Source: Asparagopsis taxiformis (lineage: Eukaryota > Rhodophyta > Florideophyceae > Bonnemaisoniales > Bonnemaisoniaceae). From it: 64,000 nt of DNA. The notes below the pieces were generated by a model that was not told where the DNA came from, did no database searches, and saw only the letters and a list, made by a program, of their open reading frames with translations. The DNA lies in NCBI GenBank assembly GCA_030407315.1, contig JALQPE010000740.1:1-64000 (forward strand), read 5' to 3'. The position numbers were made by a program, and so were the translations under genes. Shown here piece by piece: positions 3,571 through 61,142 of the stretch (the stretch's first letter is position 1; each line of letters starts with the position of its first letter).

Positions 3571-3689
3571 TGGTCCCATCTATTGTCCCAGGCAGCGTAT
3601 TTCACTATCCGGCCATGTTGCCTTGGCCAATACAAAACACTATCCGCCAACACTGCCCAGTACAGTAAATTACATCATATCCAACTATT

Positions 3690-3910: not shown

Positions 3911-3920
3911 CACCGTAGTG

Positions 3921-6444: not shown

Positions 6445-6452
6445 GCGTAAGT

Positions 6453-9227: not shown

Positions 9228-9277
9228 GGGAACCGCCTCCGTACTCTACAACGCTCAGTAAAGCGGTACTCGCAAAT

Positions 9278-9998: not shown

Positions 9999-11099
9999 GT
10001 GCAAATGGCGAATGGTATCGCCACGGTAAGGCCGCTCCTGCCGTTCGATGTCGAAGTTGCAAACTTCGGGAAGAAGGAAATCCGTCTACCAAAGGGTATG
10101 GTATTGGGTACCACAGACGGTCCCCCAACTGCATTACTCCTCGTCGGAGAGGAAGGGGACCATAGCCCCAATGACGCACGGCCCACCAGCGTCACACTAA
10201 TCCCCACTCATGCCCGAGAAGAAAGCAACCGTGAGGTCGAACGGACTCCCGATTGGAAGGAAATTGTCTGCAAAACCATGGAGTTATCCGACACTTCTTT
10301 GCAGAAGGAGATAGTCAAGATGCTGGAAAAGCACGCCTCCATGTGGAGTGGGCACCTGGGGGAGATCTCTGCGACAGAGCACCGTATCGAGCTCAAGCCG
10401 GATACGAAGCCAGTTCGCCAAGCCCCATACCGAGCGGTACATAAGAACCGCGAGATTATCACTGCACAAGTGCAGGAGATGTTGAAGGCTGGGGTTATCG
10501 AACCCGCCCAGACGGAATGGGCAAGCCCCGTGGTTGTTGTTCCGAAGAAGGACGGCTCGTCACGTTTCTGCGTGGATTATCGCCGGCTGAACGCAGTCAC
10601 CGTCAAGGACGCATATCCAATACCGCGTATGGATGACTGCATAGACTCCTTGGGGGAGGCAGCGATATTCACAACGCTCGACTGCAATAGTGGGTACTGG
10701 CAAATTCCCATTGCCGAGGAAGACAAGGAGAAGACGGCCTTCACGGCGCACGTTGGCTCCTACCAGTTCATTCGAATGCCATTCGGTTTGACGAACGCCC
10801 CCGCGACGTTCCAGAGGGCGCTCGATATCCTCCTGTCAGGAGTCAAGTGGCAATTCTGCCTTGTGTACCTTGACGATGTCATCATCTTCTCTCGCAACGA
10901 GAAGGAACACGTCCATCACGTGGACACCATACTGGCAATTCTGCGGCAAGCAGGAGTCACGCTCAAATTCAAGAAGAGCGAGTTCTTCCGCAAGAGTGTC
11001 GACTACCTCGGCCACAGAATACGGCCGGGTAAGCTGGAAGTCTTATCTACCGGCCTACAGGCGATTCAAGAATCGGCATACCCGAAGACGCAGACGTAA
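9999..11099 (+). pseudogene. Ty3 reverse transcriptase, cut by TAA
   Basis: 366 codons containing the full RT fold: WASPVVVVPKKDGSSRFCVD, YRRLNAVTVKDAYPIPRMDD, FTTLDCNSGYWQIP (block A), MPFGLTNAPATFQR (block B) and the catalytic CLVYLDDVIIFS (about 10858-10893). The YLGH block follows. The frame ends at TAA 11097-11099, and the next codon continues the same frame straight into LRSFLGSCNVYRRF, normal Ty3 sequence. The stop therefore interrupts what was one Pol frame. All visible RT catalytic residues are intact. Confidence 0.85.
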
Positions 11100-18700: not shown

Positions 18701-18937
18701 GGTTTGAGGCCGTGAATTATCACCATTGCTGGTGTGGCGCGACGAACTCATAGCGCCCCAAGTGGTCGCTTCTTCCGCCTGCTGGTCGTAAGGATGATGG
18801 GAGTACGAAGTGGAAGGTGCTAAGAACGGAGGATTTGGGGGAGGTGACATGGAAAAACACTGCGCCTGCGCAGGAGCTTGGCAATTAAGAAGGGGAGAAT
18901 GTGGGACACTGCGCTTCTGCAGGGGGCGAGCATGCAA
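15755..18937 (-). CDS. Large LTR-associated ORF, gag-like architecture (unrecognised)
   Basis: 1060 codons, intact. Residues 1-260 are Pro/Ser/Gly-rich and disordered. About 260-640 is a globular, Arg/Trp/Tyr-rich region (HYVPLPAWMSTPIFECAFP, then WVCYYAASWLELIV). About 690-790 is a coiled coil with charged heptads. The tail is Ala/Ser/Thr-rich and ends in an Arg-rich basic stretch (ARTRGG, RRPRVRKRLRESS, STRGARSTRARRSAK). This order resembles a Gag-like structural protein, but I recognise no capsid or zinc-knuckle domain. A diverged relative with the same architecture lies at 45001-47796, also downstream of a TGTAGGAC-starting LTR-like sequence. Either it is the first ORF of a separate minus-oriented LTR element, or an antisense accessory ORF of the Ty3 element. 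The start could be internal (Met near residue 30 or 64). Confidence 0.6.
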   Translation of the reverse strand: MHARPLQKRSVPHSPLLNCQAPAQAQCFSMSPPPNPPFLAPSTSYSHHPYDQQAEEATTWGAMSSSRHTSNGDNSRPQTGSSGGLGPAAHPFVAPAPRIDPGFSAVMEVLASGGGDPKDSHPGGNPSSSRPQVSDPLAAYQPDRFSRSAGRSRPSIPPSVPAPGVASASSPTVTQQHPSNSGERGPGSQGEQGGSAATQRRVREIMSMIDNLPPDARAAAQTHLRGSSSQGGAVANDSGLVDPYAKAPARNNHPEPSPEERRDREIREWMHSIDTEVFPRDRDAFGQLLRNSPGYRGYAEHMGLSPKRAILNRFRAIRDTNGPRDVDTCVRKRMEHGTCRIPIPSYFPVDLYHLCEEEDEVMVRAIARLVVLSGYHALVDDYSDVDARLLPRDLKVFPPRWTRGRWTREWRMELRRSFYGSNNTPHRLLSREARVIVTFKDVEYNNMPRRLRTEHYVPLPAWMSTPIFECAFPMPVVYRYAWSHMLGRNSEVLCSVLDKMAHTEWVCYYAASWLELIVTQNRMHELPNRVFTDIKRLGVEPVLRPSGLRREHEFFEMSPRALAHLYDVHERTDWDTIPLIPTPGAAYEPTRRTSKWVPLNPSTLEIDLSSPLFGVTLDLAIPLSVIMGTAISAHVDRWKAARLESVTLRTLIQEGLSSTTPSVPPGDPGAGSSSAVTAAPASHTTADAQSPGELRKLLNEMGQELNAERVRADKWHAEARSLTSQLEKRDRTVEVLESVRRELTEGQSALVQEKETSRVAHERALAELRDAQAPIIATRDNYKNNLVNQGPLILAAIRRLATIRSQVQGMCESAVAGMMELDSVRLQGEAQALADVTPTGGEPTFHLTTGVGHAAGPSTPSPARMPPSSSAAAVTPMLMPPPPAERPNPVSSRPPPAAEGGAIATPRETQLSDEISIVHPVAGPTPTVTATGRNNPRSGPAPRASATKNASAGASSGTARGSATKGPQGSVAGSQGSSASRTAAANTPAAVNNGSETTGRRVGARTRGGASIPPAGAARRPRVRKRLRESSDEEETLPPPAVAPRSTRGARSTRARRSAK

Positions 18938-19095
18938 ATTAATTGCATCAAAAACAGCTAAGGAGCTGGGGAGGATCGCTGAGCGGTCGCGAGTGCGTAC
19001 GGACGTGGCTGAAGGATCGGGAACAAAGGTAACGGGCGCAGCGAGCGATGGATCCGAAGGGTTGGCGCCAATCTTAACTCGAATTCACGGACACG

Positions 19096-19936: not shown

Positions 19937-21376
19937 CGCACAGTTCCACTCCTTTTCACCGTACAATTAATTCCATTCCAGCGATTTGTTCCGTTCGCAA
20001 GCGTTCCAGTTCGACTGTACGTGTCCAGAACGGTGCGAAATATTAATGTCGGCGCGAAATGTTATACTATAACGTATGTGATTGTAGTACAATCACATAC
20101 AGCAGTGCATCCAAAAGAAGCCGTTGCCACAAAAACTAGTTTCCCAAACTTCGCATACATAACAGATTATAGCTTAGCTTGTCAGTGTGAGTGGGTGAAC
20201 ACATCTATTTAGCCGAAACATGCCGCGCGGACGTCAGCTCAGTGATGCTGAGAAAGCAACTATCTTGGCACACTACCATCATGGTATGAGCCATGTTGAC
20301 ATTTCCCAAGAAGTTGTAAGGTGTCGCAGCACTGTCCAAAAGTTTCTGGCACGTCCAAAAGTGAAACAACAGAAGAGATGGGTGGCTAGGAATAAAAAGC
20401 TGACAGAAGCAGCTGAGCGAGCACTTATAAGGGAGGCGTGTAACGAGGAAATGAGCCCAACAGAGCTGAAAAAACACTTCACGCTGAGTGTTAGTTTGAG
20501 GCGTGTACAGCAGATACTGAGTTCTGTTTCATATTTGAGATATGAAAGCATGAAGAAGGGCTGTATTAAGCTTAAAATGCATCGAAAAATGAGACTCACT
20601 TGGGCTAGGAATCATTTGGAAACAGGAACGGATTGGAGGCGTCACATCTTTACATATGAAAAGAAGTTCATTCTGGATGGTCCTGACGGACTCGCATGCT
20701 ACTGGCACGATTTACGGAAGGAAAGAGAGATCTTTTCGAAACAACAGCAGGGTGGTAAATCATTGATGATTTGGGGGGCTGTTGCTTACAATTATTTATC
20801 GAATCTATATATACTAGATGGATCTGTAGACTCTGCACGCTATTGCCAGACGCTTCGTGAAACACTTCTTCCCTTTGCTCAAAAGCATTACCAAAACAAT
20901 TGGTTGTTAATGCAGGATGGTGCAAGTGTGCACAGGTCTAATGAGACGAAAAAGTGGCTGGCAGACAACAGATTGTGTGCAATTGAGTGGCCTGCAAAAA
21001 GCCCTGACCTCAACATTATTGAGAACGTTTGGGGAATGCTTGCAAGAAAAGTTTATGCTGGTTGCAGACAGTTTAGCGGACTTACGGAACTTGCCGACGC
21101 AGTGCTTGACGCATGGAATGAAATTGATATTCCGACTGTCCACAGGCTGTACGAATCGATTCCCAAACGCCTGCTTAGTGTGGTAGACAGCAAAGGAGGT
21201 CCGACGAAGTACTGACTTCAATAAACCAGTTCATTGAATCTAGCTGTATGTATAAAATTTCGCACCGACACTAATATTTCGCACCGTTATGGACACGTAC
21301 AGTCGAACTGGAACGTTTGCGAACGGAACAAATCGCTGGAATGGAATTGTACGGTGAAAAGGAGTGGAACTGTGTG
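19937..21376 (+). mobile_element. Tc1/mariner-type DNA transposon, 1,440 bp
   Basis: Flanked by TA at 19935-19936 and 21377-21378. The terminal inverted repeats are about 126-130 bp (19937-20066 and 21251-21376), with over 90% of positions matching by eye; both begin C(G/A)CACAGTTCCACTCC. One transposase ORF lies between. The TA site is one base beyond the end of the LTR (19933). A 27-bp palindrome (13-bp arms, 20074-20100) follows the left repeat. The low divergence between the repeats suggests a fairly recent insertion. Confidence 0.9.
20220..21215 (+). pseudogene. Tc1-type transposase, first catalytic Asp lost
   Basis: 331 codons with no stop. The N-terminal paired-like helix-turn-helix region is RGRQLSDAEKATILAHY, then VVRCRSTVQKFL. 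The catalytic domain contains FTYEKKFILDGPDG, LMQDGASVHRSNETKKWL and SPDLNIIENVWG. In this family the first motif is normally (S/T)DE-KF, supplying the first acid of the DDE triad. Here the codon is TAT (Tyr) where GAT would be expected. The second Asp (MQDGA) and the Glu (IIENVW) are present. The protein should bind the terminal repeats but not cut. Otherwise full length. Confidence 0.85.
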
Positions 21377-42478: not shown

Positions 42479-44011
42479 CACTTGACTACTTCACTACTTT
42501 TGAGCCAATGATTGTACAAGGAAAGTAGTTGGATGTCTACCACTTTGAACGTGGAGTAGTTGTCTACTCCGCTCCTTACACCCCAGCGCTCGTTATAAAA
42601 TGAAGTCATACATCGGAAAACAGACTGTCCTTCGCGATACGAGGGCCATAGTCTGAACAAAAAGAGACCGTCGGATTATGAATCGAACATTTCCATCTTG
42701 TTGAGGATGGATTCCGATACGTTGGACCTGATGTGCCTTGTAGCTGCTTATGCATCGTTGACCGTTGCAATAGTTTCACAGCGAAAACCTAGACGCCGTC
42801 GAAAACGGAACAGGCAAGTACAACCATGCTGTTTGCGACCAGCCCTTCTCAGCCCCGTTGGTGATGGGAGTACAACACCGTGGAGAAGACTGCTCAAATA
42901 CGGTTCTAATCGAGACTTCATTACTACGTTGAATTTCACTCGGAACGACTTCTTCAACATCCTCCTTCCATATTTTGAAATGGAAAGGAAGGGGGTAAAC
43001 TTCGGGAGCCCATACAGGATGGGACCAAAGGTACGAGGAAGGCGCCCACATGTTACCGGAACGGACTTACTGGGAATTGCTCTGTGGTACTTGAAAACGA
43101 GTAGGAATCAATACGTGATGTGTCCTGTGTTCGGATTTGTGCCAACATCAATTAATGTGTGGCTAGACTACGCACTAGAAGTGCTTCTACAAGTCGTGGA
43201 AAAGAAGGATCGTCAAGAATTTGTTGTGAAATGGCCTAGTTCCGATGAGATGATACAAAGCAACAATTTGCTGAAGGAGAATAGACAAAATGGTAGTATT
43301 ATGGACGGGATATTTGCTGTAGTTGATGGTGGTTGCATTCCTTGTGAAGAATATACGGACAGAGACTTAAAGAACGCATACAATGAAGGATATACGCAAA
43401 GTGTTGAAGTTACTAACTTGTTTTTTAGGAACTTTGAAGGAGAAGTTATTCATGCAGGGGTGAATTTCCTCGGCAGTTGGCACGATAGCAAGCTTGCATA
43501 CGCGTCTGGACTTATATATCCAAAACCGAGCAACAGAATGGCACCACCAGGATTTGCAATTCTTGGAGACAGCACATTTGTAGTAGAGAGGAAAGTCAGT
43601 GACGGGAAAATAGTGCGATCGAGAAAAATTAATGAACGGGCATTCATACCGGAGTCGCTAGAGCTGGCTGCTATTGACACAATTCTCCAGCGTGTCATGC
43701 CCAGTGAAAGGAAATCTGCTGAGTGGGGTGCTAGAGCTATGAAAGGGAAATTTGGACGTTTGAAAAGTTCCTTTATCAGCAGAAATTTCTAAACGAAAGA
43801 GGCTTCTTCGTCTATGTGTTCACCTTTTCAACTTTCGAACTCGATATGTTGGATTGAAGCAAATACGCACAACATTTTCAAAGGATGGAACATCGCAGCC
43901 TTGGATAGAGCAGTAATGAAATACGTAGAATCTTATTCATCCAGTTTTACCGTCTCTTTGTTTCGAGGGAAAGTATTGAAGTATCACAGCTTTCAGATCA
44001 TTTAAAGCCTC
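42459..44011 (+). mobile_element. PIF/Harbinger DNA transposon, right end missing
   Basis: The left terminal repeat starts at 42459 (GGGTGCATTCAG). The transposase gene follows at 42698. No matching GAATGCACCC occurs after 43800; instead the sequence changes at 44012 to the TGTAGGAC start of the next LTR-like element. The right end was probably lost at that junction. Harbinger elements often encode a second Myb-like ORF, which is absent here. Confidence 0.7.
42698..43916 (+). pseudogene. Harbinger (DDE_4-type) transposase with 1-nt frameshift
   Basis: A 364-codon frame ends at 43792, but the family C-terminus continues in the next frame to TAA 43914-43916 (LLRLCVHLFNFRTRYVGLKQ, then IRTTF). 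The switch maps to the A-run at 43763-43766, consistent with one inserted A. Catalytic region: FAVVDGGCIPCEE (first Asp), NFLGSWHDSKLA (second Asp), AEWGARAMKGKFGRLK (Glu). Upstream helical region: GTDLLGIALWYLKTSRNQY. Apart from the frameshift the gene is full length and lacks introns. Confidence 0.88.
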
Positions 44012-45000
44012 TGTAGGACCAGCCGGGGTGGCGATCGCTAGGGGAGTTCTAGAATTGCAGCCGTGTCAGGGCGAGGTGAACCGTAACGCGCTGGTTGAAT
44101 TTGCGTTCGCGCGTCGCTCGGTCGCGCTGGCGAACGGGTGGTACAACGGCTGAACGCGTAGGGAACGATCGCAACACGGGATTCGCGGGCCGGCGCAAGC
44201 CGTGATCTCAGGGGGAGATCACCGAGTAAACTCGAGCACAACGCGATCCACACAGGGGTCGTAAATCCCTGGCCTAGTGGCGTGCGACGCAACGCGCGCT
44301 ATCGCGATGCGACGCGGTTCGAAGATCGATTTATGCGCAGCGCGCACGCGAACGTCGGCGATCGTGAGCAACCCGCCCGCAACGTTGTAACGTAATCGGT
44401 CCTCGCGATTCGCTAAACGCTTAACTCGTAGCTGCGAAGATGCTGGCTGTTTATTGGTAAGGTGCGAAGCAGAACAACCATTAGTAGCTAACTACCTAGG
44501 ACAGGTTGTCCTTGCGCGGCCGGCCGGCGGCCGCTCGCTCGCACGCAAAAAGGGAAATATTTGGGAAAAAGACTTTCGTCATAAAAAACCCAAAAAGGGG
44601 AAATAAAGGGAAATTCGCAAAAGGCGCTACACGTGGCGCCAGCTCGCAGGTTCGTTCGCGCGCACGCGTTCGCTCAGGCGCGCCGTGACACGTAATCGGA
44701 TCGCTACGCGTACGCTCGCTTACTAACTAACTAATTCGCGGATGCATGCGGACTCAGCCAGACGCAGTCGTTACGAGCGCGCGCGCGTCGACCGAATAAA
44801 TTGTACCACACTCCCCCCGACTAACTCCACAGCGCGTCCTCGCGCGTCATCTTCTCACGCATACCTTCCGTTGCTTCTTCTCGCGTCTGCTTTTCTCTTT
44901 CCTCGTTCTTCTCCTTCGCTGTCACTTTCCTTCCTCTTTCGTTCTCTCTCCTCTACTCACGTTCTCCGTTTCGCCATCGTTGCCCGCTCCTTCGTCGCGA
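44012..45000 (+). mobile_element. LTR-like and leader region of a second retroelement
   Basis: Starts TGTAGGACCAGCC, sharing TGTAGGAC with the minus-strand start of the LTR at 19933. It is very CpG-rich and full of gcgcg/cgcgc words, with a polypurine-like aaaaaggggaaataaaggg stretch near 44590. The end of the LTR is not clear; ACA at about 44809 is one candidate. The 190 bp before the ATG at 45001 are C/T-rich (tctctttcctcgttcttctc), as in strong 5' leaders. No second LTR is seen in the window. Confidence 0.45.
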
Positions 45001-47796
45001 TGGCGCACGACGATGAATCTCTTCCTGGCTGGCTTCGTGCCGGCGTCGCTCCTGGCGACGAAATGACGACGCCTACTCGCACGCCGACTGCCGCTCCGCG
45101 CTTCGCAACTCCTTTGCCGGCAAGTCCTGAGAGCCCGTTCTACCTTCCCTTAGCCCAGGCATCGTCCATCAATGCGCCTGTTCCGGCGGTCGCGAGCGGT
45201 TCCGATGCGAACAGCGCCGATGCGACACCAAACGTCGTCGAGACCGTGGACGTCACGGGTACGCCGGCGTTGGTGACTGGCGGCCATTCTTCTATCGGCG
45301 TTCCTCTCCGCTCCATACCCGCTCCTTCCTCCGTATCCCTTCCGTCGGCCGCGCAAAATGCTCCCATCCCGACGCCGCGCGCTCGTTATGAAGATCCGTC
45401 CGCGTTTCGCTTTCTGCCGCGTACGCTGCCAACGTGGTCGGAGCTAAGCAGGTTACAGTATTATCCGCGCCGCTTTCAATGGGACCGCATCGCCGACGTT
45501 AATCGCTACGCTGTCCTGCCCGGTCATCGTAACGCGCAAACGGTATGGGACGCGCGACGTGAATCGGCGTTGTGCGACTTGGCCGTACCCGCGAACCTGC
45601 CATGCGACGCCTATTTCCTCGAAGACGCTGCTGACGAACGGCTCGTACGCCACTTGGCGAGGCTCCGTACAATGCGTCGCGACGAATTCGCGCATCTCGA
45701 TCCGTGGGCGGCAGCGCCAAGCGCTGGCTTCTTATTAGACGGGGGCGTTCCGTGGAACGACGTGGAACACGAGGGGGCGACGAGCGAACCTTGGTTTCTC
45801 GACGCGAGTATGCGCCCCGAGGCGCGCCGCGAATTACGCTTGCGTCGCACGTCCGGATACTTCGTCACGCACCGCGACGTCGAGTTCCGTGAATTCCCTG
45901 AAGATCGTATCGGCGCTTTCTTCCCTCGTTACGACGCGCGCGACTGGCCTGAAGCACCCGAATCCTTGTCGGTTCCTTTGCCTTGCGTCTTCCATTACGC
46001 GCCGTCTGTCCTCCTTGGTCTTAACGTCCCCGTCGAAACGCGCTCGTACTTCTGGGCCGTTGCTTTAAGCGAATGGGTCGTAATGGTAGCGTGTGCGTGG
46101 CTCCATATCGCTTATGTCGAGCGTCGCATAGTGCGTTTAAGCGATAAACTTATCGCTGGTATCGAGCGCGTCGGCGGTCGTGCGCGGCGGTTCGTATTCT
46201 ACGGCACACTTGGAAAGTCTTCTATCGGAACATCGCGCTTGCACATGGGACGAAACGCCCGTCTTCGACGTCGCGCCGGGTATCGATTTCAACGAAGGCG
46301 GCCAATGGTTGCCGTAGAACGCGGAACGCGGCAGTGTGGACTGGGCGCACGGTTCGCTCGGTGTCCATCGTCACACCGAGATTCCGCATCTTCTGTTAAA
46401 ATCGCCGCGAAACCCGTCGCGCAGCGCGTTCGCGCATCTAGAAGCCCATGACGTCGTGACCGTCGATGCCGTATTGTCCGCGTTATCAACCAACGAGCTA
46501 CACGTGATGCGTGCGACCAACTCGCGAGAGTACGCGCAATACCTCGGCATGGCGGCGTTGCTTGCCGTAGAGCGTCGGCGCTTTCGAGACGGTCGGTATT
46601 CGCTATTTTCGGAGGCGCCCCGAGCTCCGATCGACGTTACCCAGCTTGACGCAGCGCTGCGGGCGGAGTACGTCAAGGTATACAACGAACTGCAGGAACT
46701 AAAGAAGGCCACTCAGGGTCAAAGTACTGCGGCGGCGTCAGGCGAAGCGAGCGCTAGTGGGGCCGCGGCGGGTGCTGCAGCCAACGTAGTTTCGGCCGTG
46801 GTTGACGACGCGGTAGCGAGTGCGGCCGCGGTCGCTGAAGGCGTGGCATCGATTGCACCAGATGCGGCTGAACTGCGAACTCGACTGGCTGAGGCCGAAC
46901 GAGACCGCGAAGAAGCGTTGTCGCGCGTGACGTCCATTGCGCAAGCTCGCGACGACGCCTTAGTCCGCCTCGACGAAGCGAATCGGGCGCGCGACGCCGC
47001 GCACTAGACGCGAGACGAGGCCCTGTCGCTTTTGCAAGGGGCGAGGGAGGCGCTTACAAAGACCGAGGTCCGCGAGGTGGCGTTAAAACGCAAAGTCGAC
47101 GAAGATGCGGTGCGTATCGAACGCATGCAGACAGACATCAATACGATGATGGGTCGGGCGGGTGCGCACAGGAGAAGCGAAGAAGACCTTCGCGCTAAGG
47201 TGACGGAACTTCAAACTCGCTGCGACGCGGCTTCGGTGGCGCGCGAAACGGCGGAACGGGCGCTTGTCGAAGTAGAAACTAACCTTGGGGCCGAGAGGGA
47301 ACGAGCGGCTAGTCGCCTTACCGCGGTGCGCGATGAGTACCAAGCGCGCGAGCGGGAGACCGTACGACAAGTCCAAGATACTATCGAGCGCGCGCACCGT
47401 TTGGGTACGGCGTTGAATAACGTTGTGGGTTACCTGAAGCGGTCCCCCGCGGGGTCGGTTGACGAACAAGAGTCGGCCGGTGAAACGCAGTCTGTAAGTG
47501 GGCTGCGCGCGGAAGCATCGGTGCGTGGCGCCTCCGAGGGCGTTGGCGTGGGGCGCGGCGGCACTCGCCCTACGACGAGCTCGCGTGCGGCTGCAGCCTC
47601 GGCGGGTCGGGCAAGCATTCCTCCACTTCGAATTGGCGTACATGATGGGCGCGTCGTTCGGGTGTTGAATCCCGAGCGGCGACGCGGTCACCAGGCAGAT
47701 ACGGCTTCAATCCTTGCTCGTTCGCGCGGTACTGCGGGTAGTTCGTCGAGCCGTCGCACGCGTCGGGACGGCGACACGCGCGCACCACAGTCTTAG
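45001..47796 (+). pseudogene. Gag-like ORF, second copy, broken (coiled-coil, basic tail)
   Basis: Same architecture as the intact minus ORF at 15755-18937: Pro/Ser/Thr-rich start (MAHDDESLPGWLRAG), Trp/Arg/Tyr-rich globular part (RARYEDPSAFRFLPRTLPTW, then PLPCVFHYAPSVLLGLNVPV, then WAVALSEWVVMVACAWLHIA), long coiled coil (about 46860-47420), basic Arg/Ser tail (SSSSRRTRRDGDTRAPQS). Three breaks: a shift from the first frame to the next near 46150-46200, a TAG at about 46315, and a TAG at 47005-47007 inside the coiled coil, after which the same frame resumes. Primary sequence similarity to the other copy is low, so they are distant relatives, not recent duplicates. An AATAAA lies about 45 nt after the stop. 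Confidence 0.65.
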
Positions 47797-48954: not shown

Positions 48955-49325
48955 ACCAACACGGTGCACTGTCCTGGGCAGTACCTGGAGACAGTGATTT
49001 TCACTGTCCTGGGCAGTACCTGTAGACAGTACTTTGTGCTGCCCTGGGCAGCACCTGTAGACAGTACTTTGTGCTGCCCTGGGCAGCACCTGTAGACAGT
49101 ACTTTGTGCTGCCCTGGGCAGCATCTGGAGACAGTATTTCGTGCTGCCCTGGGCAGCATCTGGAGACAGTATTTCGTGCTACCCTGGGCAGCATCTGGAG
49201 ACAGTATTTCGTGCTGCCCTGGGCAGCACCTGTAGACAGTATTTCGTGCTGCCCTGGGCAGCACCTGTAGACAGTATTTCGTGCTGCCCTGGGCAGCACC
49301 TGGAGACAGTAAAAGTAGTGTCCTG
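48955..49325 (-). repeat. 35-bp minisatellite with nested palindrome (S2)
   Basis: About ten copies of the same unit as 3250-3570, here in reverse orientation and more homogeneous (gtgctgccctgggcagcac dyads). The ORFs of 178 and 210 codons over it are repeat artefacts, read in three frames in turn. Confidence 0.9.
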
Positions 49326-49430
49326 ATATAGTAAAATTCGGTGTCTGGGAGTGGTGGATGAGATGGAGCGTCACGCTGTCGTGGGCATCTTTTTGGGGTA
49401 GAGGGAGGCAGTTCTAGCGCTATGAGGATG

Positions 49431-49464
49431 CGTCTGTGTTCTCGGAAATGGACGCGGACGTCCA
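49431..49464 (+). repeat. Left terminal inverted repeat of the 11.1-kb element
   Basis: 34 bp starting CGTCTGTGTTCTCGG and ending GGACGTCCA. It mirrors 60523-60556 with two mismatches. GGACGTCC inside it recurs throughout the element. Confidence 0.92.
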
Positions 49465-49759
49465 CAACCTCTAGTACACCTAGTATTACTAGGCGGACGT
49501 CCATGTTCTCCAGTATTTTTGGATGTCCGCCTAGAACCGGACGTCCATGCGGTCTAGTACGTCTAGTATTACTAGGACGACATTCATTGTTTCTAGTACC
49601 ACGGATGTCCCCCTCGGGATGGACTTCCGCCATGTCTATGTCAACCTAGGACGGGCGCCGGTTCAGAAATTCAAAAATTTCGACCCCAGAAATTTCTGCC
49701 GCCTTGCTCGACATGGATGTCCGCATCCATCACGGCGACCACTCTATTTTTCCTTGTCG

Positions 49760-50730
49760 GTCGACTCCAATTTCGTCTTTAATTTTTTCATCCTCTCGCT
49801 CACACCCCCTTCCATTTGGTGCTCACCTCCCCCGTACTGTACCTCAAACACCCCCAATACCACTCTAGAACGCATTTTCAGCTACCTATCCCCGCTTCCA
49901 CGGTGCACACCTCCATTCCATACCTACTTTTCTGCTCTACCGTACAGATTTCTTATAACCAGTCCTCATACTACCTCAGAATAGGGAAAACATCCCCTAT
50001 CCCCTCGACCATGCTCTCCCCCATCACCTTTGCAACGTATTGTTCTTCAATACCCTCTCTCCTCTTCCTTCAACCCCTCTCCTTCGCCCTCTCCACAAAA
50101 TTCCCCTGTAGCTTACTCTTCGAAAACCTCTCACTCCTCATCCCGTACCCGACCTGCTCCACTCCTCCCTCCCTCACCTGCTACATGCCCCCACGCCATC
50201 CGCATCTTCGATACCGTATACACCACCACCACCACCACCGGCCCACGCTCCCGCTCCGACGCCGTCTCCCCAGAAACCTCCCCGCTCTGAACCACATATC
50301 AACCCCCCACTTCGCACCCATCCTCCCACTCTCGTCCCTCCCCAAATACAATAACCCCCTTCTTCTCCATCACATCCCCACTCACCAAAGCCAGAACAGA
50401 CGCCACCCCCTTCCCGCCTCTTTCTCCTCACTTTCCTAAAAAACCCCTCCTCTCGGCGCCTTCAACCGCACCCTCCTACGGTCCCACCTAAACACCTCCT
50501 CCGCCCTCACTACCCCAACACCCCGCAGTGTCTCCCCAATCCCATCATATGCTCGTCGGCACTCCTCTCCGAATCACAATCCAATCTAAACCCGCACTCC
50601 GTACATTTCCACCTCCCCCTGTACTATTCCAAGATTGCATCCCTCCAGAGAACACATCCTCATACCACAGAAGAATTTTCTTCCTCTCATACCTCATCCT
50701 TAAAACCTCCATCAGCTCCATCTAAATTTC
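49760..50730. other. Strongly C/T-rich segment
   Basis: About 1 kb with very few G on the plus strand (ccaccaccaccaccaccgg and similar). No gene; the 207-codon plus ORF over it (Pro/Ser/Leu/His/Thr only) reflects composition. Opposite in skew to the G-rich part at 58200-59900 on the other side of the element. Confidence 0.6.
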
Positions 50731-50893
50731 GATGTAAATATTTTCTCCACTATGCAATCTCAAACATGTATGAACGTATGCCTTTCCGCTTTGTCAACCC
50801 TGAATATTGGTACTCATGTATTCATAAAATAGGGCCACCCACATCCCTATCCCGTTCTGCAAGCTTTACAAACCACTAGACGCATACTCCACA

Positions 50894-52981
50894 ACTATAC
50901 AACAAACACTACTCGCTATTTCAGACGACGCGGTACACAAATAGCGTAGTCTCAACCTTCCGTGAGGCCTTCTCTGATGCGTACAAGTGCGAAACACGTC
51001 TAGACGTACATCAGAAGTGAGCGCGGGATTTTTCGGCACAGGAGATGCTGGGCCACCAAATTGATTTTTCGGAAATTTTAGAATTTCTGGGCTGGCCAGC
51101 AATGCAATCGAGCTGGACATCCACCGGACGTCCATTTCAGGTTGGTCGTGAGAGAGTGGGGCGGGAACATGATGAAACAAGGACCAAGACATGTCCCTGA
51201 CGTGTTGAGCCTGAAATCGACCCTTCGTAAGACGCGATTTTGGCTTACAGTTGGTGCTTACAGAAGCCAGTGATGACCCCGGTCGGGGCGGCAGCCGGTT
51301 CCTGGGGCCGTTGTGGCCAAATTAGACACCTTGATTTGAATTGAAATTTGGGCTATTCTCAAAAACATGCACATGTGAACATGTTTTTGAGATGGGGGTC
51401 TGCCGTACGGCACAATCGACCCGCCCAAATCGATGATTTTTCACAATTTTTTTCTGCCCGAAATTTTAGAATTTCTGGGCTGGCCAGCAGTGCAATCAAG
51501 CTGGACATCCACCGGACGTCCATTTCAGGTTGGTCGTGTGCTGCCCACATCCATGCATTGCAGCAACTAAGCAGGCGGGCTCACTACTCATACAAAGTGC
51601 ACGTAGCATGGGCAGCATGATGGATGAGCAGTGTTTGTCGTGAGAAAGTGGGGTGGGAGCATGTCGAAACAAGGACCAAAACTTCGCCCTGGCGTATTGA
51701 GCCTGAGCCTGGAATCGATCCTTCGTGAGATGTGGCTTTGCTTACAGTTGGTGCTTACAGAAGCCAGCGATGGCCCCGCTCGGGGCGTCGGATGGCTTCT
51801 TCTGGGGCCGTTGTGGCCAGATTAGACACCTTGATTTGAATTGAAATTTGGGCTATTCTCAAAAACATGCACATGTGAACATGTTTTTGAGATGGGGGTG
51901 TGCCGTACGGCACTTTCGACCCCCAAATCGATATAATTTTGCAATTTTTTTTCTGACTGAAATTTTAGAATTTCTGGGCTCGCCAGCAATGCAATTGAGA
52001 TGGACATTCACCGGACGTCCATTTCAGGTTGGTCGAGTATTGCACATGGATACAGTTTTGCAGCTATTTCTCAGCCCAACATTTTAGAATTTCAGGGCTG
52101 ACCAGCAATGTAACCGAGGCGGACTTCCACTGGACGTCCATTTCAAGTTAGGCTAGTGCTGCACATTTGCTCGCATCGCAGCAACTAAGCAAGTGTTGAG
52201 AGCACCGAGATGCCATGCAGACAAGAGGGAATCGGCTGCAAACGGCTTCCCTGGTCGGCAGCTGGATGTCTGGATGTCAATGGCTGCAAGCATGGAAATC
52301 TTGCTACCGCACGGCGCATACACACTGCAGCAGCACATCACTGACGCATGCGAAAGTTGGGTGCTGCAGTGCGTGGTTGTTTGTGTGTTTGTGTGTGCAC
52401 GACGAACCTTGTGGTATCCCTAGGCGTGCACTGGTGCAAAAATTTGGACTGCCCCATCGGTCGTACTTTGACGCATTTACATGCATCGGAGAACGACCAA
52501 GGAGGTAGAGCAGCAATCGCTGTTGGCTGAGCGTCCAAATTGGAGGGCTTGGGACAATGGTTCTATAGCAGTCATTTATAGGACGCCCACCGTTGATGAC
52601 TGAGATCCACGGTGGGTTTAGTATTCATGGTGTTGTCCTGCATTGGCGGATGTCGAAGACGAGTACTTCCAGTGAGCGTCCAAGCTGAACAGCTGAGTGG
52701 GTAAGTGAGCGGGGAGGGGCCGCTCGGGGCGCTTGGTAGCTTCTGGGGCCGTTGTGGCCAAATTAGAATCAAGCCTATGTCCGGCGGACGTCCTGAATTG
52801 CTTTATTTTTTGGGCTATTCTCAAAAACATGCACATGTGAACATGTTTTTGAGATGGGGGTGTGCCGTACGGCACTTTCGACCGCCCAAATCGATGTATT
52901 TTTGCATTTTTTTTCTGACTGAAATTTTAGAATTTCTGGGCTCGCCAGCAATGCAATTGCGCTGGTCATTCACCGGACGTC
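50894..52981 (+). repeat. Left arm of 2,088-bp inverted repeat
   Basis: Pairs with 55611-57698. It is itself built of recurring modules. One holds aattttagaatttctgggct plus accggacgtcc (near 51080, 51465, 51960, 52085, 52925). The other holds a palindrome, caaaaacatg...catgtttttg, followed by gccgtacggc (near 51360, 51860, 52820). Repeats of these two modules give the shadow ORFs seen in this area. Confidence 0.92.
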
Positions 52982-55610
52982 CATTTCCATTTCAGATCTA
53001 CTGGTTGCACTAGGCCTGAAAGTGTTTCTGGATAGGGCCGAATAACGACCTGGGCAGCACGCACTGCGTAAGATGATCTGTGTGATGCAGACTGCAAGGA
53101 TTTCTATGGTGATTCTGGCTGGGGAATGTGGTAAGCTTGATTGTTGCGTGGCTTTGTATCTCCTTGCCTGCCATTTTGCTTGGATATTTACACGAGCGAT
53201 CAAACCGAAGACGCCGACTCTGCACAACTACCAACTCTCCTAGCTTCGAGTCAGCGCCATCCAATTGCAACTTGTGACACTCAAGACGAATACGTTGTGC
53301 TGATCTCTGCAATGAAAATTGAGTTAGTGCTGCAGTTCTTTTGGGCGATGCCAATATGCAGGGATACTGTTTACACCTTTTGGGAGTCAAGAAGTTCTCG
53401 GATTGCAAATCAAATCAGATCATGGTAGAATATCTGACTTTTCTCTCTTCCCTTCACCACATCTGCATCCGGAGCTGAGCCAAGCTGAGCTGGAGGGAAC
53501 CCGGCCGCTGACCCCTGTCATTCTCATAAACATCTTTAATGCAATACTATTCGTGTATGGTAATGTAAGTGCTAATGAAAATGTATACAAGTCTAGAATA
53601 AACGTTGCAGTGGTTCTTTGTAGCTATCGATACTTGCTAAAAATCTGTAGCTTTTGCTTCTCGCATGGACGAGTTGCAGTCTTTGTGTTTGTTTCATTTC
53701 TGCCACAAACGAGAGGCAATCAGGGTCTGTGTTCACATAGAGAATGATTTAATATATGCGCTCATTGCCGTCGTAGATACTTTTAACAATGGCCAGTACG
53801 TTTCTCTCGGCCGCCGCCGGGTACGGTCGGACTGAAAGATCGGGGAGATGTGTGGAGAGTAGTGTTTCGATAGAGACGAACGTTGCGATGGATGGAATGG
53901 TGATGATTTCATGCTGAAGCGATGGGAGATGGATGGATATGGTTGAATGAAATCTAGTATTCCGAAGGAGGCCTTTTCTCGAGGAAGAGGCATTATATTC
54001 TCACAAAGCATGTAGATACTGGTTTCCAGTTTGGTATACTATTGTAGCTCAATTCACATCTTATCTACACGTACGTATGGAGAGAGATCCAAGTGTGCGT
54101 GGCACAGGTCCAACGGTGAAACAACGCAGTATGAAACTACCACAGATAAGGCGGCGTACAAAATCCTCGACTCAAGGCAGCTCTCAGGCTTTCGTGAGCA
54201 CCGACTTCGTTCCACCAAGAAGTTGCGGAAATATGTGCTGGTCTAACTTGATACGACCATAGGACAGTTTTGCTCCCTAAGCAATGAGCGAAAAATCAAT
54301 GATTGCGCGTGTCGTCGGTACGGTCTTGTAATGTTGGCTCAACCAATAACATCTAACGTTGAGTTATCCACCCTCCGCCGTGTCGCGTCGCGTCGTAAAT
54401 TTGCACAGAAAATTTGTTTCAAATCTTTGCTCCAATTATCAGCTCAAATACGGCATTGATCTCCAGCTTCATCTGGACAGAAACACCGATCGCTCGATGT
54501 CTGTCTCAAATAAATCGCAGTCAAACGCCATGCGGAAAGTTTCATCGCTTCCCGTTGCGACTGAATCTGCAAACGCCACACAAAAATTTGCCCTTTCCGC
54601 GTCCGGAACGAACGCCGACTACATGTCGTCAGGTTCCTGATCGACTGGATCGATGGAGCTTGCTCTGCAGGAGAGCAGGACAGGCGGTTTGTTATGCCTG
54701 GACAATTTCCATACCGATCTCCCTTCTTGAGTGCAAAATTACGAGTCTAGAAATTGACCTGCATCGGCTGCTGTATCACATCTGTGCTAAGGATTGATGA
54801 TACCCGTACCGCTGAGAAATTGCAGCTCTGGTAACGTGGGGATGATGTGCTGAACACGCAGAACGCTGATCCATAATGGGACTGCTTCATAGGCATAGTA
54901 CGGAATGTATTGAGACAGCCCAAGCGAATTCAGGAGGGAGCACCAGGGCAGTGCGCGGTGACTCAGCAGATACCAGTGGTGAGTGGTCTAAATGGGGCTA
55001 CACACGAGTTTGTCAATGAACAGTCTAGTTTAGTTTGGAAATGTTTCGGATGGATGGTATGTTGTAAATGTCGACAGATTTGAGGAAGCGATAGAAGCAA
55101 TCAGCACCGTGTAGTTGCATCAAGGCTTTAGTGGCCATTGCTAGAGAACTTTCTCCAATGCCCTTATTGCAGGATGGGCAGAAAACCCGGCCGGCTTCGA
55201 GATTGAAGAATTCATTGCGCAGATTGAATGAATGCAATTGACGGAGAATGCAGAAGTATACAATGGTATCGTTTTGCAGGGTGACGTAGGGGAAACATGT
55301 TGGGCTTGTTGGAAATGCTGAGAGCGATGATGAGATCCAGTCGTTTCCGTCGTAGATGGCAGTGCTTGTTTTCTGCACGGCTAGCTTGTCTGCTGGGCGA
55401 CTGGACGGTATTGGCGTACGATGAAGCGGGACTGGTGGTGTTTAAATGACATTTTTTGTTTGAAGATGGATGTATGTGTGCGACTAGAATGTAGTAAGAG
55501 CATGAAAATGTTTATGTTTGATGGGCGTCGCATGTTGGGGGACTTTATGTCGTGTGGGGCAATAATGTCTCAGGTATTTGAAGCAGACAGCAATCGCTTG
55601 AGCGCATATA
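52982..55610. other. 2.6-kb spacer between the inverted arms
   Basis: Unique sequence without a recognisable gene. The best ORF is a 117-codon minus one (55378-55025) with a CPSCNKG pair and a protein-like composition (FCILRQLHSFNLRNEFFN). It might be a captured gene fragment, but it has no known domain. Other ORFs look random. Confidence 0.45.
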
Positions 55611-57698
55611 GACGTCCGGTGAATGACCAGCGCAATTGCATTGCTGGCGAGCCCAGAAATTCTAAAATTTCAGTCAGAAAAAAAATGCAAAAATACATCG
55701 ATTTGGGCGGTCGAAAGTGCCGTACGGCACACCCCCATCTCAAAAACATGTTCACATGTGCATGTTTTTGAGAATAGCCCAAAAAATAAAGCAATTCAGG
55801 ACGTCCGCCGGACATAGGCTTGATTCTAATTTGGCCACAACGGCCCCAGAAGCTACCAAGCGCCCCGAGCGGCCCCTCCCCGCTCACTTACCCACTCACG
55901 CTGTTCAGCTTGGACGCTCACTGGAAGTACTCGTCTTCGACATCCGCCAATGCAGGACAACACCATGAATACTAAACCCACCGTGGATCTCAGTCATCAA
56001 CGGTGGGCGTCCTATAAATGACTGCTATAGAACCATTGTCCCAAGCCCTCCAATTTGGACGCTCAGCCAACAGCGATTGCTGCTCTACCTCCTTGGTCGT
56101 TCTCCGATGCATGTAAATGCGTCAAAGTACGACCGATGGGGCAGTCCAAATGTTTTGCACCAGTGCACGCCTAGGGATACCACAAGGTTCGTCGTGCACA
56201 CACAAACACACAAACACCACGCACTGCAGCACCCAACTTTCGCATGCGTCAGTGATGTGCTGCTGCAGTGTGTATGCGCCGTGCGGTAGCAAGATTTCCA
56301 TGCTTGCAGCCATTGACATCCAGACATCCAGCTGCCGACCAGGGAAGCCGTTTGCAGCCGATTCCCTCTTGTCTGCATGGCATCTCGGTGCTCTCAACAC
56401 TTGCTTAGTTGCTGCGATGCGAGCAAATGTGCAGCACTAGCCTAACTTGAAATGGACGTCCAGTGGAAGTCCGCCTCGGTTACATTGCTGGTCAGCCCTG
56501 AAATTCTAAAATGTTGGGCTGAGAAATAGCTGCAAAACTGTATCCATGTGCAATACTCGACCAACCTGAAATGGACGTCCGGTGAATGTCCATCTCAATT
56601 GCATTGCTGGCGAGCCCAGAAATTCTAAAATTTCAGTCAGAAAAAAAATTGCAAAATTATATCGATTTGGGAGGTCGAAAGTGCCGTACGGCACACCCCC
56701 ATCTCAAAAACATGTTCACATGTGCATGTTTTTGAGAATAGCCCAAATTTCAATTCAAATCAAGGTGTCTAATCTGGCCACAACGGCCCCAGAAGAAGCC
56801 ATCCGACGCCCCGAGCGGGGCCATCGCTGGCTTCTGTAAGCAACAACTGTAAGCAAAGCCACATCTCACGAAGGATCGATTCCAGGCTCAGGCTCAATAC
56901 GCCAGGGCGAAGTTTTGGTCCTTGTTTCGACATGCTCCCACCCCACTTTCTCACGACAAACACTGCTCATCCATCATGCTGCCCATGCTACGTGCACTTT
57001 GTATGAGTAGTGAGCCCGCCTGCGTGGTTGCTGTAATGCGTAGATGTGAGCAGCACACGACCAACCTGAAATGGACGTCCGGTGGATGTCCAGCTTGATT
57101 GCACTGCTGGCCAGCCCAGAAATTCTAAAATTTCGGGCAGAAAAAAATTGTGAAAAATCATCGATTTGGGCGGGTCGATTGTGCCGTACGGCAGACCCCC
57201 ATCTCAAAAACATGTTCACATGTGCATGTTTTTGAGAATAGCCCAAATTTCAATTCAAATCAAGGTGTCTAATTTGGCCACAACGGCCCCAGGAACCGGC
57301 TGCCGCCCCGACCGGGGTCATCACTGGCTTCTGTAAGCACCAACTGTAAGCCAAAATCGCGTCTTACGAAGGGTCGATTTCAGGCTCAACACGTCAGGGA
57401 CAGGTCTTGGTCCTTGTTTCATCATGTTCCCGCCCCCTCTCTCACGACCAACCTGAAATGGACGTCCGGTGGATGTCCAGCTCGATTGCATTGCTGGCCA
57501 GCCCAGAAATTCTAAAATTTCCGCAAAATCAATTTGGTGGCTCAGCATCTCCTGTGCAGAAAACTCTCGCACTCATTTCTGATATACGTTTTGACGTGTT
57601 TTTTACTTTTAAGCATCAGGAAAGGCGTTACGGAAAATTGGGACTACGCCACTTGTGAGCCGCGTCGTCTGAGATAGCGAGTAGAGTTTGTTGTATAG
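55611..57698 (-). repeat. Right arm of 2,088-bp inverted repeat
   Basis: Reverse complement of 50894-52981 with the same length. Inner parts are almost identical. The outermost roughly 150 bp (57550-57698 against 50894-51040) are clearly more diverged, about three quarters matching by eye. Confidence 0.92.
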
Positions 57699-58239
57699 TA
57701 TTTATATTGTATTCCAAATGTGCGTTCGAGACCTCGTTTGTAATGTTCTCGTGGTTTTGTGGGTATCAGTTTTGTGCTCACTTCTGGCAGCCCAATGGTG
57801 GAATGTGCCTGAGCGATCAATCATCACCGCTAGGTCACACATTTTGCTGGCAACGTGCGCTTGGAAGGACGAATGACCGCCGTGGGAGATGGATTTTCAA
57901 TTAATTCATTTGAAATAATAAAATTATATTAACTGCGAACTTCATGGAATAAGTTTGTGCTTTACAGTGGATATTACAGGGATCATTTAAGGGAAGCAAA
58001 TGGATTGTGATATATATGATTATACCATTCCGATGTTCTCGATCCGGATCTCATCATTCGGGAGTTCAGAGACCATGGCTTGGGCCATTATTAATCTCAA
58101 TACCGGCGATGATATGGAGTATGCACAGCAGGACTTAAGCTGACGTTGAAAGCTGTCCAGTCGACGCCGCAGGTTAACCTGTGGAGTTCCACTTCTCCGC
58201 CGTCACTGGCTGAGGTTCTTTGGTCGTGTTTCCTTTGTT

Positions 58240-59650
58240 TGGTGTAGAGGATAGAACGACGGTGAGTATGCCAGTTTGGAGAGTATGCAGCGAGGGAAGC
58301 GTGTGTTTTGAGTCGTACTGTTGTCGTTGATGCGATATTGATTCATTAGAAGCTTCGTGAGTCGTGGTTTGCATGTTGTGAACCATGGGAGGCAGGTAAG
58401 TAAGTGAGTCTCGCGGGTGTGCAATAAGGGATGCATGGGTTTTTAGTCTGACTGTTCTGGTTCATTTTGATGTTGTATAGGTGGTGCAGGAATAGTGATG
58501 AAGTAAGGTAAGTTTCATTGAGCTGAAAGACGGGTTTCGCGATGAAATGGAATGCTGACTACATTTTTTCGTTGCACGATTTGTGAATTATTGGTTGTAT
58601 TGTTTGTATGATGCAACGAGATGAAGAGGTTAAGTGCGTCCTGAGGGTATGAAGCGAGGGAAGTGTTTGTTTTAAATTTGACTGTCGTCTTTTATGCAAT
58701 ATTTATTTATTGGGAGCTTAGTGAGTCATGGTGCATATTTGCTGAAGGGTGGAAGGGAGGTAGGCGAGCATTTGAGGGGTGCAGTGAGTGGAATGTGGGT
58801 TTTGAGTCTGACTGCTGTGGTTGATGTTGATTTTGTGTAGGTGATTCTGGAATGGTGATGACGGAAGGTAAGTTACATTGAGCGCCTAGTTAAGTTGCGC
58901 GAAGATATGGAATGCTGACTACATTTTTTTGTACAATTTTTGACTTATGGTTTCTATTGTGTGCAGGATACAACGAGGGTAAGTAAGTTCTGAGGGTATG
59001 CAGCGAGGGAAGCATGGGTTTTCAGTCCGACTGTTGTTGTTGATTTCGATTTTTTGTAGGTGATGCAGGAATGGTGATGACGGAAGGTAAGTTGCATTTA
59101 GCGCGCAGTCCGGTGGTGCGAAGATGCGGAATGTTGACTTCATTTGTTGGTTGTGAGATTTTCGACTTTTGGTCTGTATTGTGTGTAGAATGAAACGAGA
59201 GTAAGTGAGTTCTGAGGGTATGCATCGAGAGAAGTGTTTGTTTCGAATCTGACTATTGCAGTTAATGCGATATTTATTCATTGGAAGCTTATCCAGTCAT
59301 GGTGCGTATTGTGTCGAGCGAAGGAAAGTGCGGAAGTTTTGAGAGTATGCTGAGAGGGACATGTGGGTTTTGAGTCCGACTGTTGTTGTTGATTTCGATT
59401 TTATGCAGGTGATGCTGGAATGGTGATGACAGAAGGTAAGTTTCATTGAGCGCCAAGACTTGTTTTGCGAAGATATGGACTGCTGACTTTGATTATTCAT
59501 TGCAAGGTTTTTGCATCATGGTTTGTATTGTGTGTAGGATGGATGAGAGGTAAGTAAGGGATTTTCTAAGATATCTGGCGTGGTAAGCGTTGCTTTTGAA
59601 TCTGACTGTTGGGGTTGATGTTGTGTATGTGATGCAGGAGTGGTGAAGCA
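58240..59650 (+). repeat. Tandem array of microexon-like units
   Basis: Units of about 220 bp, some with an extra 130 bp. Each contains segment A (27 nt, GTGATGCAGGAATGGTGATG...) and segment B (12 nt, such as GATACAACGAGG). A copies: 58481-58507, 58841-58867, 59060-59086, 59409-59435. B copies: 58967-58978, 59189-59200, 59538-59549. All these are preceded by a YAG-type acceptor (ttttgtag, tgtgtag, atgcag) and followed by GTAAGT or GTAAG. Further degenerate copies lie at 58249, 58610 and 59629. Both lengths are multiples of three. See findings. Confidence 0.75.
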
Positions 59651-60000
59651 GGAACGGCAGGACTCAGGGAGAGTGAAGAAGGGATCTAGGAAGATGGGGA
59701 ATGAAGCTGTGAGGTGTTTCTGGTATGTGTATATTTTCGGGCATACGATAGAAGTAAGAGTGGGTTTCAAGTCGTGTAAGATTTTGCTGACCATGTTCGT
59801 GTTTCATGTCTTGATGATTTAATGGGCTGGGGTGGTGTCGAGGAAAGCGGGGATGGAATTGGGAAGGAGCAGATTTTTTGTAATCTAGGTCGTGAGGGTT
59901 CTTGAAGTATGTGCGGATGGTGGTGCATGGCGTTCGGATGGTAGGGAGAACGCGATAGTGAGGGAGATGGGTGATCGACGGTATGCTGACAGGTATTTTG

Positions 60001-60120
60001 TATTCTGGCTGGATACGTATTCCATATTCTAGCTGGATACATATTCCGTATCCTGGCTGGATACGTATTTCCTATTCTAACCGGGTATTTATTTCCTATT
60101 CTGACCAGATATGTATTTCC
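60001..60120 (+). repeat. 24-bp tandem repeat, five copies
   Basis: Consensus TATTCTGGCTGGATACGTAT plus ttcc, five units with a few changes each and a partial sixth. It encodes an octapeptide repeat in the 62-codon plus ORF (YSGWIRIP-like), which I do not call a gene. Confidence 0.85.
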
Positions 60121-60251
60121 TATTCTAGAGAGACGTATTGTATACCAGCAGTTTCGTAAATGAGAGAATAAAATACGGTCCGATATGGGCCCTCAATTTA
60201 CCATCCGCTGTAATTTCTTCCCTCCCGGTTTTTGCTGATATATTGTATACT

Positions 60252-60424
60252 GAATGTCGGGTCCTAGGATCCCGCTGAATGTACTAGAGAAACCGGATGT
60301 CGGGTCCTAGTACTCCGCCGAACGTACTAGAGAAAGTGGATGTCGGGTCCTAGTATTCCGCCGAACGTACTAGAGAAAGTGGATGTCGGGTCCTAGTATT
60401 CCGCCGAACGTACTAGAGAAAGTG
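60252..60424 (+). repeat. 43-bp subterminal tandem repeat, four copies
   Basis: Units run from GGATGTCGGGTCCTAGTA to TACTAGAGAAAGT and lead directly into GGACGTCCGC next to the right terminal repeat. Subterminal repeats of this kind are typical transposase-binding arrays in some DNA transposons. Confidence 0.88.
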
Positions 60425-60522
60425 GACGTCCGCATCCAAAAAATTTTTATTTTTTTTTCGGACGCGGACGTTCATTTGTTCTAGTAAATCTCGGGGCCGA
60501 CTAGGACCCGTACTAGAGAGAC

Positions 60523-60556
60523 TGGACGTCCGCGTCCACTTCCGAAAACACAGACG
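60523..60556 (-). repeat. Right terminal inverted repeat of the 11.1-kb element
   Basis: Reads TGGACGTCCGCG... and ends AAACACAGACG, followed by the duplicated TG (60557-60558). Matches 49431-49464 inverted at 32 of 34 positions. Confidence 0.92.
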
Positions 60557-61142
60557 TGGGGCATGGACGGTATTCATATGGGAATGGACAGAATAGTACG
60601 GCTAGGAATTTTTATTTCGTAGTGACTATGAGCTAGCGAGAGGTATACGCGGTAGGATAGGTAGCAATCTAAGAGGGTGCGATATGGGAAGCTTCACTCT
60701 GGATTTGTTTATTTGCGCAGGCTACATTGAGAATAAACAATCCCTATGTTAAAAATGCTACTACAACTAACACTATTCCGACGAGTAAAACTAAAACTAC
60801 TAGAAAAGTCTAGAAATCTATCAACTGATTGAGCTGCATGAATAAGCTAGGAAATGAAGAGAAGAAGAAAAAATGATGTATAGAAAGGAAACAAGTTAGT
60901 GACGTTGAATTGGAGAGGGAAATTGATGGTGATTAGGAGACTAACGTACCTTAACAAATACCATTGCATCCCAAATTGAGATATGTACTCACAGGCAGAA
61001 AAGAAAAGTAGTGGAGAAGTGGTAAGAGAGAAAGATAAATGAAAGTAGAAGTGGAACACTCACCGACTGGAAACCTGAGAAAGAGAAAACGAATAGAAAA
61101 CTGGGTTAGTGGCGTGAGTTGTGGAAACGTACCATCATGGTT

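Follow-up and report, generated by a model that had tools for sequence, protein, structure and literature searches.

A giant non-autonomous transposon in a probable red-algal genome shares its ends with Plavaka elements carrying a predicted adenine methyltransferase-SET fusion

The 64,000-nucleotide stretch analyzed here (G000:C740:1-64000, hereafter the window, from an assembly of 141.5 Mb in 3156 contigs) contains, at positions 49431 to 60556, an 11,126-bp mobile DNA element without a recognizable gene of its own. We interpret it as a non-autonomous cut-and-paste transposon that is moved in trans by the Plavaka-type transposase of longer elements with the same ends, a reading to which we assign a probability of about 90%. 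As a non-autonomous form, the window element would belong to a new Plavaka lineage, set apart by its termini, its cargo, and its probable host, a red alga.

The element is bounded by 34-bp terminal inverted repeats (49431 to 49464 on the plus strand and 60523 to 60556 on the minus strand) that are identical at 32 of 34 positions. Its termini read CGTCTGTGTT..AACACAGACG, starting with CG and finishing with CG. A TG dinucleotide is read from the sequence on either side (49429 to 49430 and 60557 to 60558), and the filled site, S2, has the form ...ctatgaggaTG[element]TGgggcatgg.... A paralogous empty site, S1 (1600 to 3920), runs straight through the target with a single TG (...ctatgaggaTGgggcatgg...), the unoccupied dinucleotide being at 3134 to 3135 on the minus strand (CA on the plus strand, TG on the minus strand). 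S2 is 87% identical to S1 over 1600 to 3135 and 92% over 3134 to 3920. A preliminary description of this DNA had reported the same coordinates, length, inverted ends, TG duplication, and empty site, all of which proved correct to the base.

The 34-bp end pattern, with two positions left two-fold open, was searched in the 141.5 Mb at ≤2 mismatches. There were 1352 forward and 1382 reverse matches (2734 in all), while a backward control pattern gave 0. For the first 270 bp of the element, 511 candidates were listed and 40 of them scored, which gave at least 40 places with a (rounded) identity of 100%. Both ends were read for 16 elements, the window element included, and 14 of the 16 pairs have a matching 2-bp flanking duplication (chance, 1.5e-15). 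The dinucleotides are TG, TG, AT, GA, TT, AA, CA, TA, TT, CG, TA, TA, AT, and AT; the 2 bp duplicated upon integration have no set sequence. Mates 10.0 to 12.1 kb away were sought for 15 ends; 6 were found, all with matching duplications, and 9 were not. Eight of the nine mateless ends (C9a, C9b, C10, C18, C23, C26, C27, and C28) have matches to the genes P1, P3, or P4 (see below) a few kilobases inside, and they probably belong to gene-bearing forms of other lengths.

These data bear on whether S1 is an empty site at all or has lost an ancestral segment by deletion, the 11 kb being immobile. Room for such a history is left by the fact that S1 and S2 are paralogous subtelomeric copies, the other S copies of the genome lying outside the search. 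The same ends nevertheless occur 2734 times, and 13 other pairs have matching duplications of various dinucleotides. Moreover, when the joined flanks (minus one duplication) of 15 insertions were aligned to four reference sequences, three of the insertions proved to interrupt genes of other family copies, C20 and C3130 each a P2 gene and C2258 a P4 gene. Their joined flanks align without gaps over the whole 113 to 118 bp, at 97 to 99% identity to uninterrupted copies, which brings the exact empty sites to four, that of the window and those of the three nested insertions. The direction of the event rests on these three insertions, since they break genes whose uninterrupted copies are in hand. 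With nested insertions and varied duplications at hand, deletion instead of insertion was rejected, and we give it virtually no credence.

Inside the element, two 2.09-kb foldback arms (50894 to 52984 on the plus strand and 55608 to 57699 on the minus strand), 98% identical to each other, surround a 2.6-kb loop (52985 to 55607, plus strand) that is specific to the non-autonomous subfamily; a 36-mer from the loop has ~328 copies. Counting the window copy, 7 copies were read, and in 5 of them the loop is reversed; both orientations are the expected outcome of recombination between arms of 98% identity. Further along the plus strand lie a tandem array with splice-donor-like GTAAGT motifs (58251 to 59650), a minisatellite of 24/48 bp (59993 to 60128), and a subterminal tandem repeat of 43 bp (60254 to 60430). 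The foldback, the splice-site-decorated array, and the two minisatellites announced earlier are all present. No protein family was found above cut-off in 10 scanned open reading frames (ORFs) of the 54 listed for 49000 to 61000, and neither tblastn with P1 to P4 (E ≤ 1) nor a transposase profile (E ≤ 10) matched the window element. The earlier statement that no recognizable transposase gene lies inside thus held in scanned ORFs, tblastn, and profile search.

The preliminary description had suggested pairing the ends across the genome, looking for a copy with a transposase, and aligning empty sites, and it held that ends never paired elsewhere would leave mobility unsupported; with 14 of 16 pairs matching, the pairing test favored the element. 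Nine elements were obtained by pairing ends, three of which have a different interior with long ORFs. The longest gene-bearing element (C52:39208-59251; 20,044 bp) is flanked by a TA/TA duplication and has the same ends as the window element. From its 3′ end inward, it carries P1, P2, P3, and P4. P1 reads inward, P2 and P3 lie on the opposite strand, and P4 is on the same strand as P1. In C52, P1 is frame-broken, P2 has 713 amino acids (aa), P3 has 1084 aa from stop to stop, and P4, with 1268 aa, departs toward its end from the majority of other copies (frames of ~1331 to 1364 aa).

P1 of copy C100 (1037 aa from stop to stop) matched the Pfam family Plavaka (PF18759, E = 2.8e-23, 83.1 bits against a cut-off of 26.3). 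An alignment of 20 sequences shows no variation at D283, D398, E699, C418-x2-C421, or H675-x3-H679, the last two motifs being located between D398 and E699. This is the motif order given for Plavaka (CMCT clade) in the accessible excerpts of Kojima 2025 (PMC12730594), where the C(2)C and H(3-4)H motifs of a DDE transposase stand between the second D and the last E. The CMC/EnSpm-like group had been set aside earlier because the ends are not CACT-like, but P1 belongs to a family of that group. The P1 frame is open in all 44 scored copies (of 2569 candidates). The ratio of non-synonymous to synonymous changes (pN/pS) between copies is 0.34 to 0.46 (p = 0.002 to 0.04) for P1 and 0.40 to 0.69 (p = 0.004 to 0.20) for P2; codons with a single change were counted in seven tests covering P1, P2, and P3, with uncorrected p-values. 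P2 gave sub-threshold matches only, in the stretch ~190 to 255. Searches of 5.8 billion proteins, with ~8000 candidates scored per search, yielded 43 homologues of P1, one at 98% identity and the others at ≤41%. In the viral contigs searched, relatives of the transposase, P3, or P4 could not be confirmed.

Since the window element has no match to P1 to P4 and, in the scanned ORFs, no family above cut-off, P1 acting in trans is the simplest mover, and we infer that P1 moves the 11-kb form. As a DDE enzyme from elements of up to ~20 kb, it would act on this form via the common 34-bp ends and subterminal repeats. The 5′ end region shared with gene-bearing relatives (49431 to 51494, plus strand) is 94% identical to C12b over ~2.06 kb and 95% identical to C52 over 1.8 kb, and the 3′ end region (58657 to 60556, plus strand) is 81 to 83% identical to both over 1.9 kb. 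Arms and ends of the 11-kb form are made of the terminal and subterminal repeats of the larger element, the repeat units in the arms (arm 1) being ~85% like those in the 20-kb element. Each end of either element form has repeated GGACGTCC palindromes and TACTAG/CTAGTA motifs; the TACTAG motifs concentrate at the element ends, and GGACGTCC occurs in the foldback arms too. On the model of the subterminal repeats of EnSpm, both are candidate transposase-binding sites. A separate family with an unrecognized mobility factor, which came by Plavaka-like ends through recombination or convergence, would be consistent with the ~328 copies of its own and with a loop that, except at its edges, matches nothing in the 20-kb element. 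The two long end regions shared with gene-bearing elements and the absence of any detected gene in what was scanned argue against this origin, and we regard it as very improbable.

Copy counts based on short patterns at ≤2 mismatches are 993 for P1, 966 for P3, 921 for P4, and 328 for the interior of the window element. The sum of 993 and 328 is 1321, to be compared with 1367 end pairs; by these counts, ~990 transposase-gene copies and ~330 gene-less interiors together would account for the ends. The preliminary suggestion of a giant non-autonomous derivative agrees with the ~328 copies that have the same interior and with the gene-bearing copies flanked by the same ends. At full length, the gene-bearing form would sum to 19.9 Mb and the 11-kb form to 3.6 Mb (~24 of 141 Mb); since some copies may be incomplete and both haplotypes may be present in the assembly, these sums are upper limits. 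Among the matches listed (the first hundred or so places per gene), 30 contigs with all three genes hold 21 P1-P3-P4 triplets, and 10 of these contigs hold none. Seventeen of the 21 triplets are canonical, with a P1-P3 spacing of 6311 to 6339 bp and a P3-P4 spacing of 5.2 to 7.9 kb. The remaining triplets, with P3 inverted and changed spacing, represent a second arrangement of the large element. A further form, C100:220010-230550, is a 10.4-kb head-to-head palindrome with two 3′-type ends and a CA/CA duplication; it carries one whole and one partial transposase gene. Two like ends of the 3′ type appear able to insert. C1739 shows a back-to-back arrangement, with a second 3′-type end starting 93 bases after the first element stops.

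P3 combines, in one ORF, an N6_N4_Mtase domain (PF01555, 3.1e-15) followed by a SET domain (PF00856, 1e-6, 29.6 bits against a cut-off of 22.4), both of which exceed their Pfam cut-offs. In beta-class methyltransferases the DPPY motif precedes the S-adenosylmethionine-binding DPFxG motif, and DPPY is read as a sign of adenine rather than cytosine specificity. In P0001, DPPY is at 508 and DPFSG at 746. Short stretches of P3 also match PDB sequences of the adenine methyltransferases DpnA (4e-8) and CcrM (0.002). P3 is therefore predicted to be a beta-class adenine DNA methyltransferase fused to a SET histone methyltransferase. All 43 scored copies (of 4135 candidates) have an open P3 frame, and the P3 pN/pS of 0.17 between two copies (12 synonymous and 7 non-synonymous changes; p = 2e-4) is the lowest of the three genes tested. 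Among the candidates scored, the homologues of P3 form one cluster that is 99% identical and, given this identity, presumably comes from the same or a sister organism.

P4 is open in 36 of 37 scored copies (of 4968 candidates) and has, among the candidates scored, three homologues with 33 to 37% identity over about one-third of the query. Its N-terminal half contains DG-HR residues as in DndB/ParB-like proteins. Enzymes of the 2-oxoglutarate (2OG)-Fe(II) dioxygenase type have the pattern HxD...H...R in a double-stranded beta-helix fold; at the C-ends of the P4 homologues, H866-N-D868, H941, and R957 are invariant in the three. The C terminus of P4 is a putative 2OG-Fe(II) dioxygenase. Without a Tet_JBP match in Pfam (E ≤ 0.1), P4 is not assigned to the TET/JBP family.

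From these sequence features, a self-directed chromatin role for the cargo seems likely. Under this reading, the family would use P3 and P4 to set its copies' chromatin state, which may protect these copies from silencing or limit their dose, and the cargo may thereby have allowed ~1,300 copies. It is conceivable that P3 and P4 are instead accidental cargo with no role in transposition. P1 also occurs with only part of the cargo, in the palindromic C100 and, lacking P4, in C12b, and the functions of P3 and P4 are read from sequence. Such a view is difficult to reconcile with the near one-to-one gene counts (993, 966, and 921), the 17 canonical triplets among the matches listed, the open frames of P3 and P4 in nearly all scored copies, and the low pN/pS of P3, and we consider it improbable. 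More tentatively, the Plavaka lineage might use an epigenetic kit of its own in trans on all copies, 11-kb passengers included, so that the transposon supplies much of the DNA methylation of the genome; we think this rather unlikely. In such a kit P3 would be the writer and P4 a DNA-targeted oxygenase. A domain search, exon by exon, found no cytosine-5 DNA methyltransferase domain in the assembly. A search for MT-A70 (PF05063) gave 0 matches, yet the control genomes were also negative, which makes this result uninformative.

The known Plavaka elements provide a frame for these assignments. In the accessible excerpts of Kojima 2025 (PMC12730594), the fungal PlavakaA has the termini TGT..ACA and the fungal PlavakaB the termini CATCA..TGATG; the CMCT clade has 5′-CA..TG-3′ termini “in most cases,” and Plavaka has a 2- or 3-bp target duplication. 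The same excerpts mention that some fungal Plavaka carry a TET/JBP dioxygenase and name SET cargo in other superfamilies. As far as these excerpts go, the present family resembles PlavakaA and PlavakaB in its Pfam Plavaka transposase, with D/D/E, C(2)C, and H(3)H, in a 2-bp duplication (14 of 16 pairs), and in the presence of an epigenetic enzyme in some members. It differs in its probable red-algal host and in carrying an adenine methyltransferase-SET fusion and P4, for which Pfam has no match, in place of TET/JBP. The preliminary notion of an undescribed family therefore stands for the termini, which fit neither published subgroup, and for the cargo, which is new to the literature searched; it does not stand for the transposase, which belongs to the described Plavaka.

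Other systems are similar in part. EnSpm-Plavaka of the green alga Auxenochlorella (PMC12633428) is likewise a Plavaka-type cut-and-paste transposon in an alga; the available excerpts mention neither accessory chromatin genes nor a giant non-autonomous partner. The giant Plavaka repeats of Amoebidium (PMC11244446) are described, in the excerpts at hand, as having other genes, many of them tyrosine recombinases, in tandem clusters of up to 50 kb, whereas here a four-gene unit has defined ends. HarbingerS and MuDR of oomycetes (PMC12730594) are also DNA transposons that carry a SET gene, but they belong to other transposase superfamilies, and a SET-adenine methyltransferase fusion is not mentioned in the excerpted text. 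In the open-licence literature searched, as far as its accessible text goes, neither a red-algal Plavaka nor one carrying a DNA adenine methyltransferase was found to be described, and the cargo of the larger element is new within that literature.

Several findings weigh against the reading of the 11-kb form as a passenger of a chromatin-modifying Plavaka lineage. The lack of any P1 to P4 match in the window element is one, and the lack of a C52 match for its loop, beyond the loop edges, is another. Two of the 16 pairs have no matching duplication (C11, AC/TA; C12b, TG/TT); C11 may be rearranged, because its left flank falls within a P3 gene that the right flank does not match. The termini CGTCTGTGTT..AACACAGACG are neither TGT..ACA nor CATCA..TGATG, at least as these are given in the excerpts of PMC12730594; they begin and end with CG rather than CA..TG, a rule that this source words as holding “in most cases” and not as exclusive. 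Haplotype duplication in the assembly could inflate the copy counts, and 4 of the 21 listed triplets (C110, C119, C135, and C213) have P3 inverted, with a P1-P3 spacing of 7563 to 7929 bp. P4 was matched by no family of Pfam (E ≤ 0.1) or NCBIfam (E ≤ 1), and PDB gave nothing for the single sequence (E ≤ 5) or for a profile (E ≤ 10); a DndB match is present in one of three scanned homologues (P0003) at a sub-threshold 0.016, the AlphaFold2 model of P0003, built from three aligned sequences, has a pLDDT of 38 and is unusable, and the dioxygenase assignment draws on conserved residues. Of 14 control genomes, the 10 that were positive in the cytosine-5 search are all prokaryotes, and a divergent or intron-split gene could escape it.

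The array at 58251 to 59650 has 10 GTAAGT on the plus strand, against an expectation of 0.5 and a maximum of 4 over 100 shuffles, and 0 on the minus strand. The gene-bearing elements share these motifs, and the array is oriented outward, away from the transposase gene. The same strand bias is present in gene-bearing copies, with 6 (C52), 4 (C12b), and 2 (C100) GTAAGT and 0 on the other strand. The count exceeds all 100 shuffles in the window and in C52 and is within the shuffle range in C12b (maximum 4) and C100 (maximum 3), while GGTAAGT is above all shuffles in the window, C52, C12b, and C100 alike. We claim no function for these motifs because tandem duplication alone could explain their number.

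Consistently with a red-algal host, phycobiliprotein domains gave 13 matches in the assembly, 11 of them on contig C469, the pattern of a phycobilisome plastid. The window also has long single-exon nuclear genes, e.g., XPB/ERCC3 and RNA 3′-phosphate cyclase. On both grounds the host is most likely a red alga, with a glaucophyte as the less probable alternative. Its first 800 positions are a telomere, (CCCCTAAT)n, an unusual 8-mer (TTAGGGGA on the opposite strand). A reverse-transcriptase ORF (4397 to 8198; RVT_1, just under cut-off), possibly Penelope-like, lies near the telomere and the empty site S1. It is followed by pieces of a long terminal repeat-type polyprotein (9173 to 13886; reverse transcriptase, RNase H, integrase, and chromodomain) and by transposase ORFs of the Tc1-like (DDE_3; 20199 to 21215) and DDE_Tnp_4 (42599 to 43792) types. 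Two long ORFs look alike, at 15755 to 19084 on the minus strand, which has no Pfam match, and at 44727 to 47796 on the plus strand. The latter is itself repeated, since the left flank of C12b is 96% like window positions 47448 to 47498.

Chromatin enzymes on transposons are known case by case, as TET/JBP in fungi and SET in oomycetes. P3 would unite DNA adenine methyltransferase and SET domains within a single ORF, in a family of near a thousand copies and in an assembly with no cytosine-5 methyltransferase detected. The family would thus offer a system for asking whether DNA and histone methylation by a transposon itself protects or limits that transposon, and whether adenine methylation in some eukaryotes derives from transposons. 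With this family, a large Plavaka expansion is also located in an organism that is most likely a red alga.

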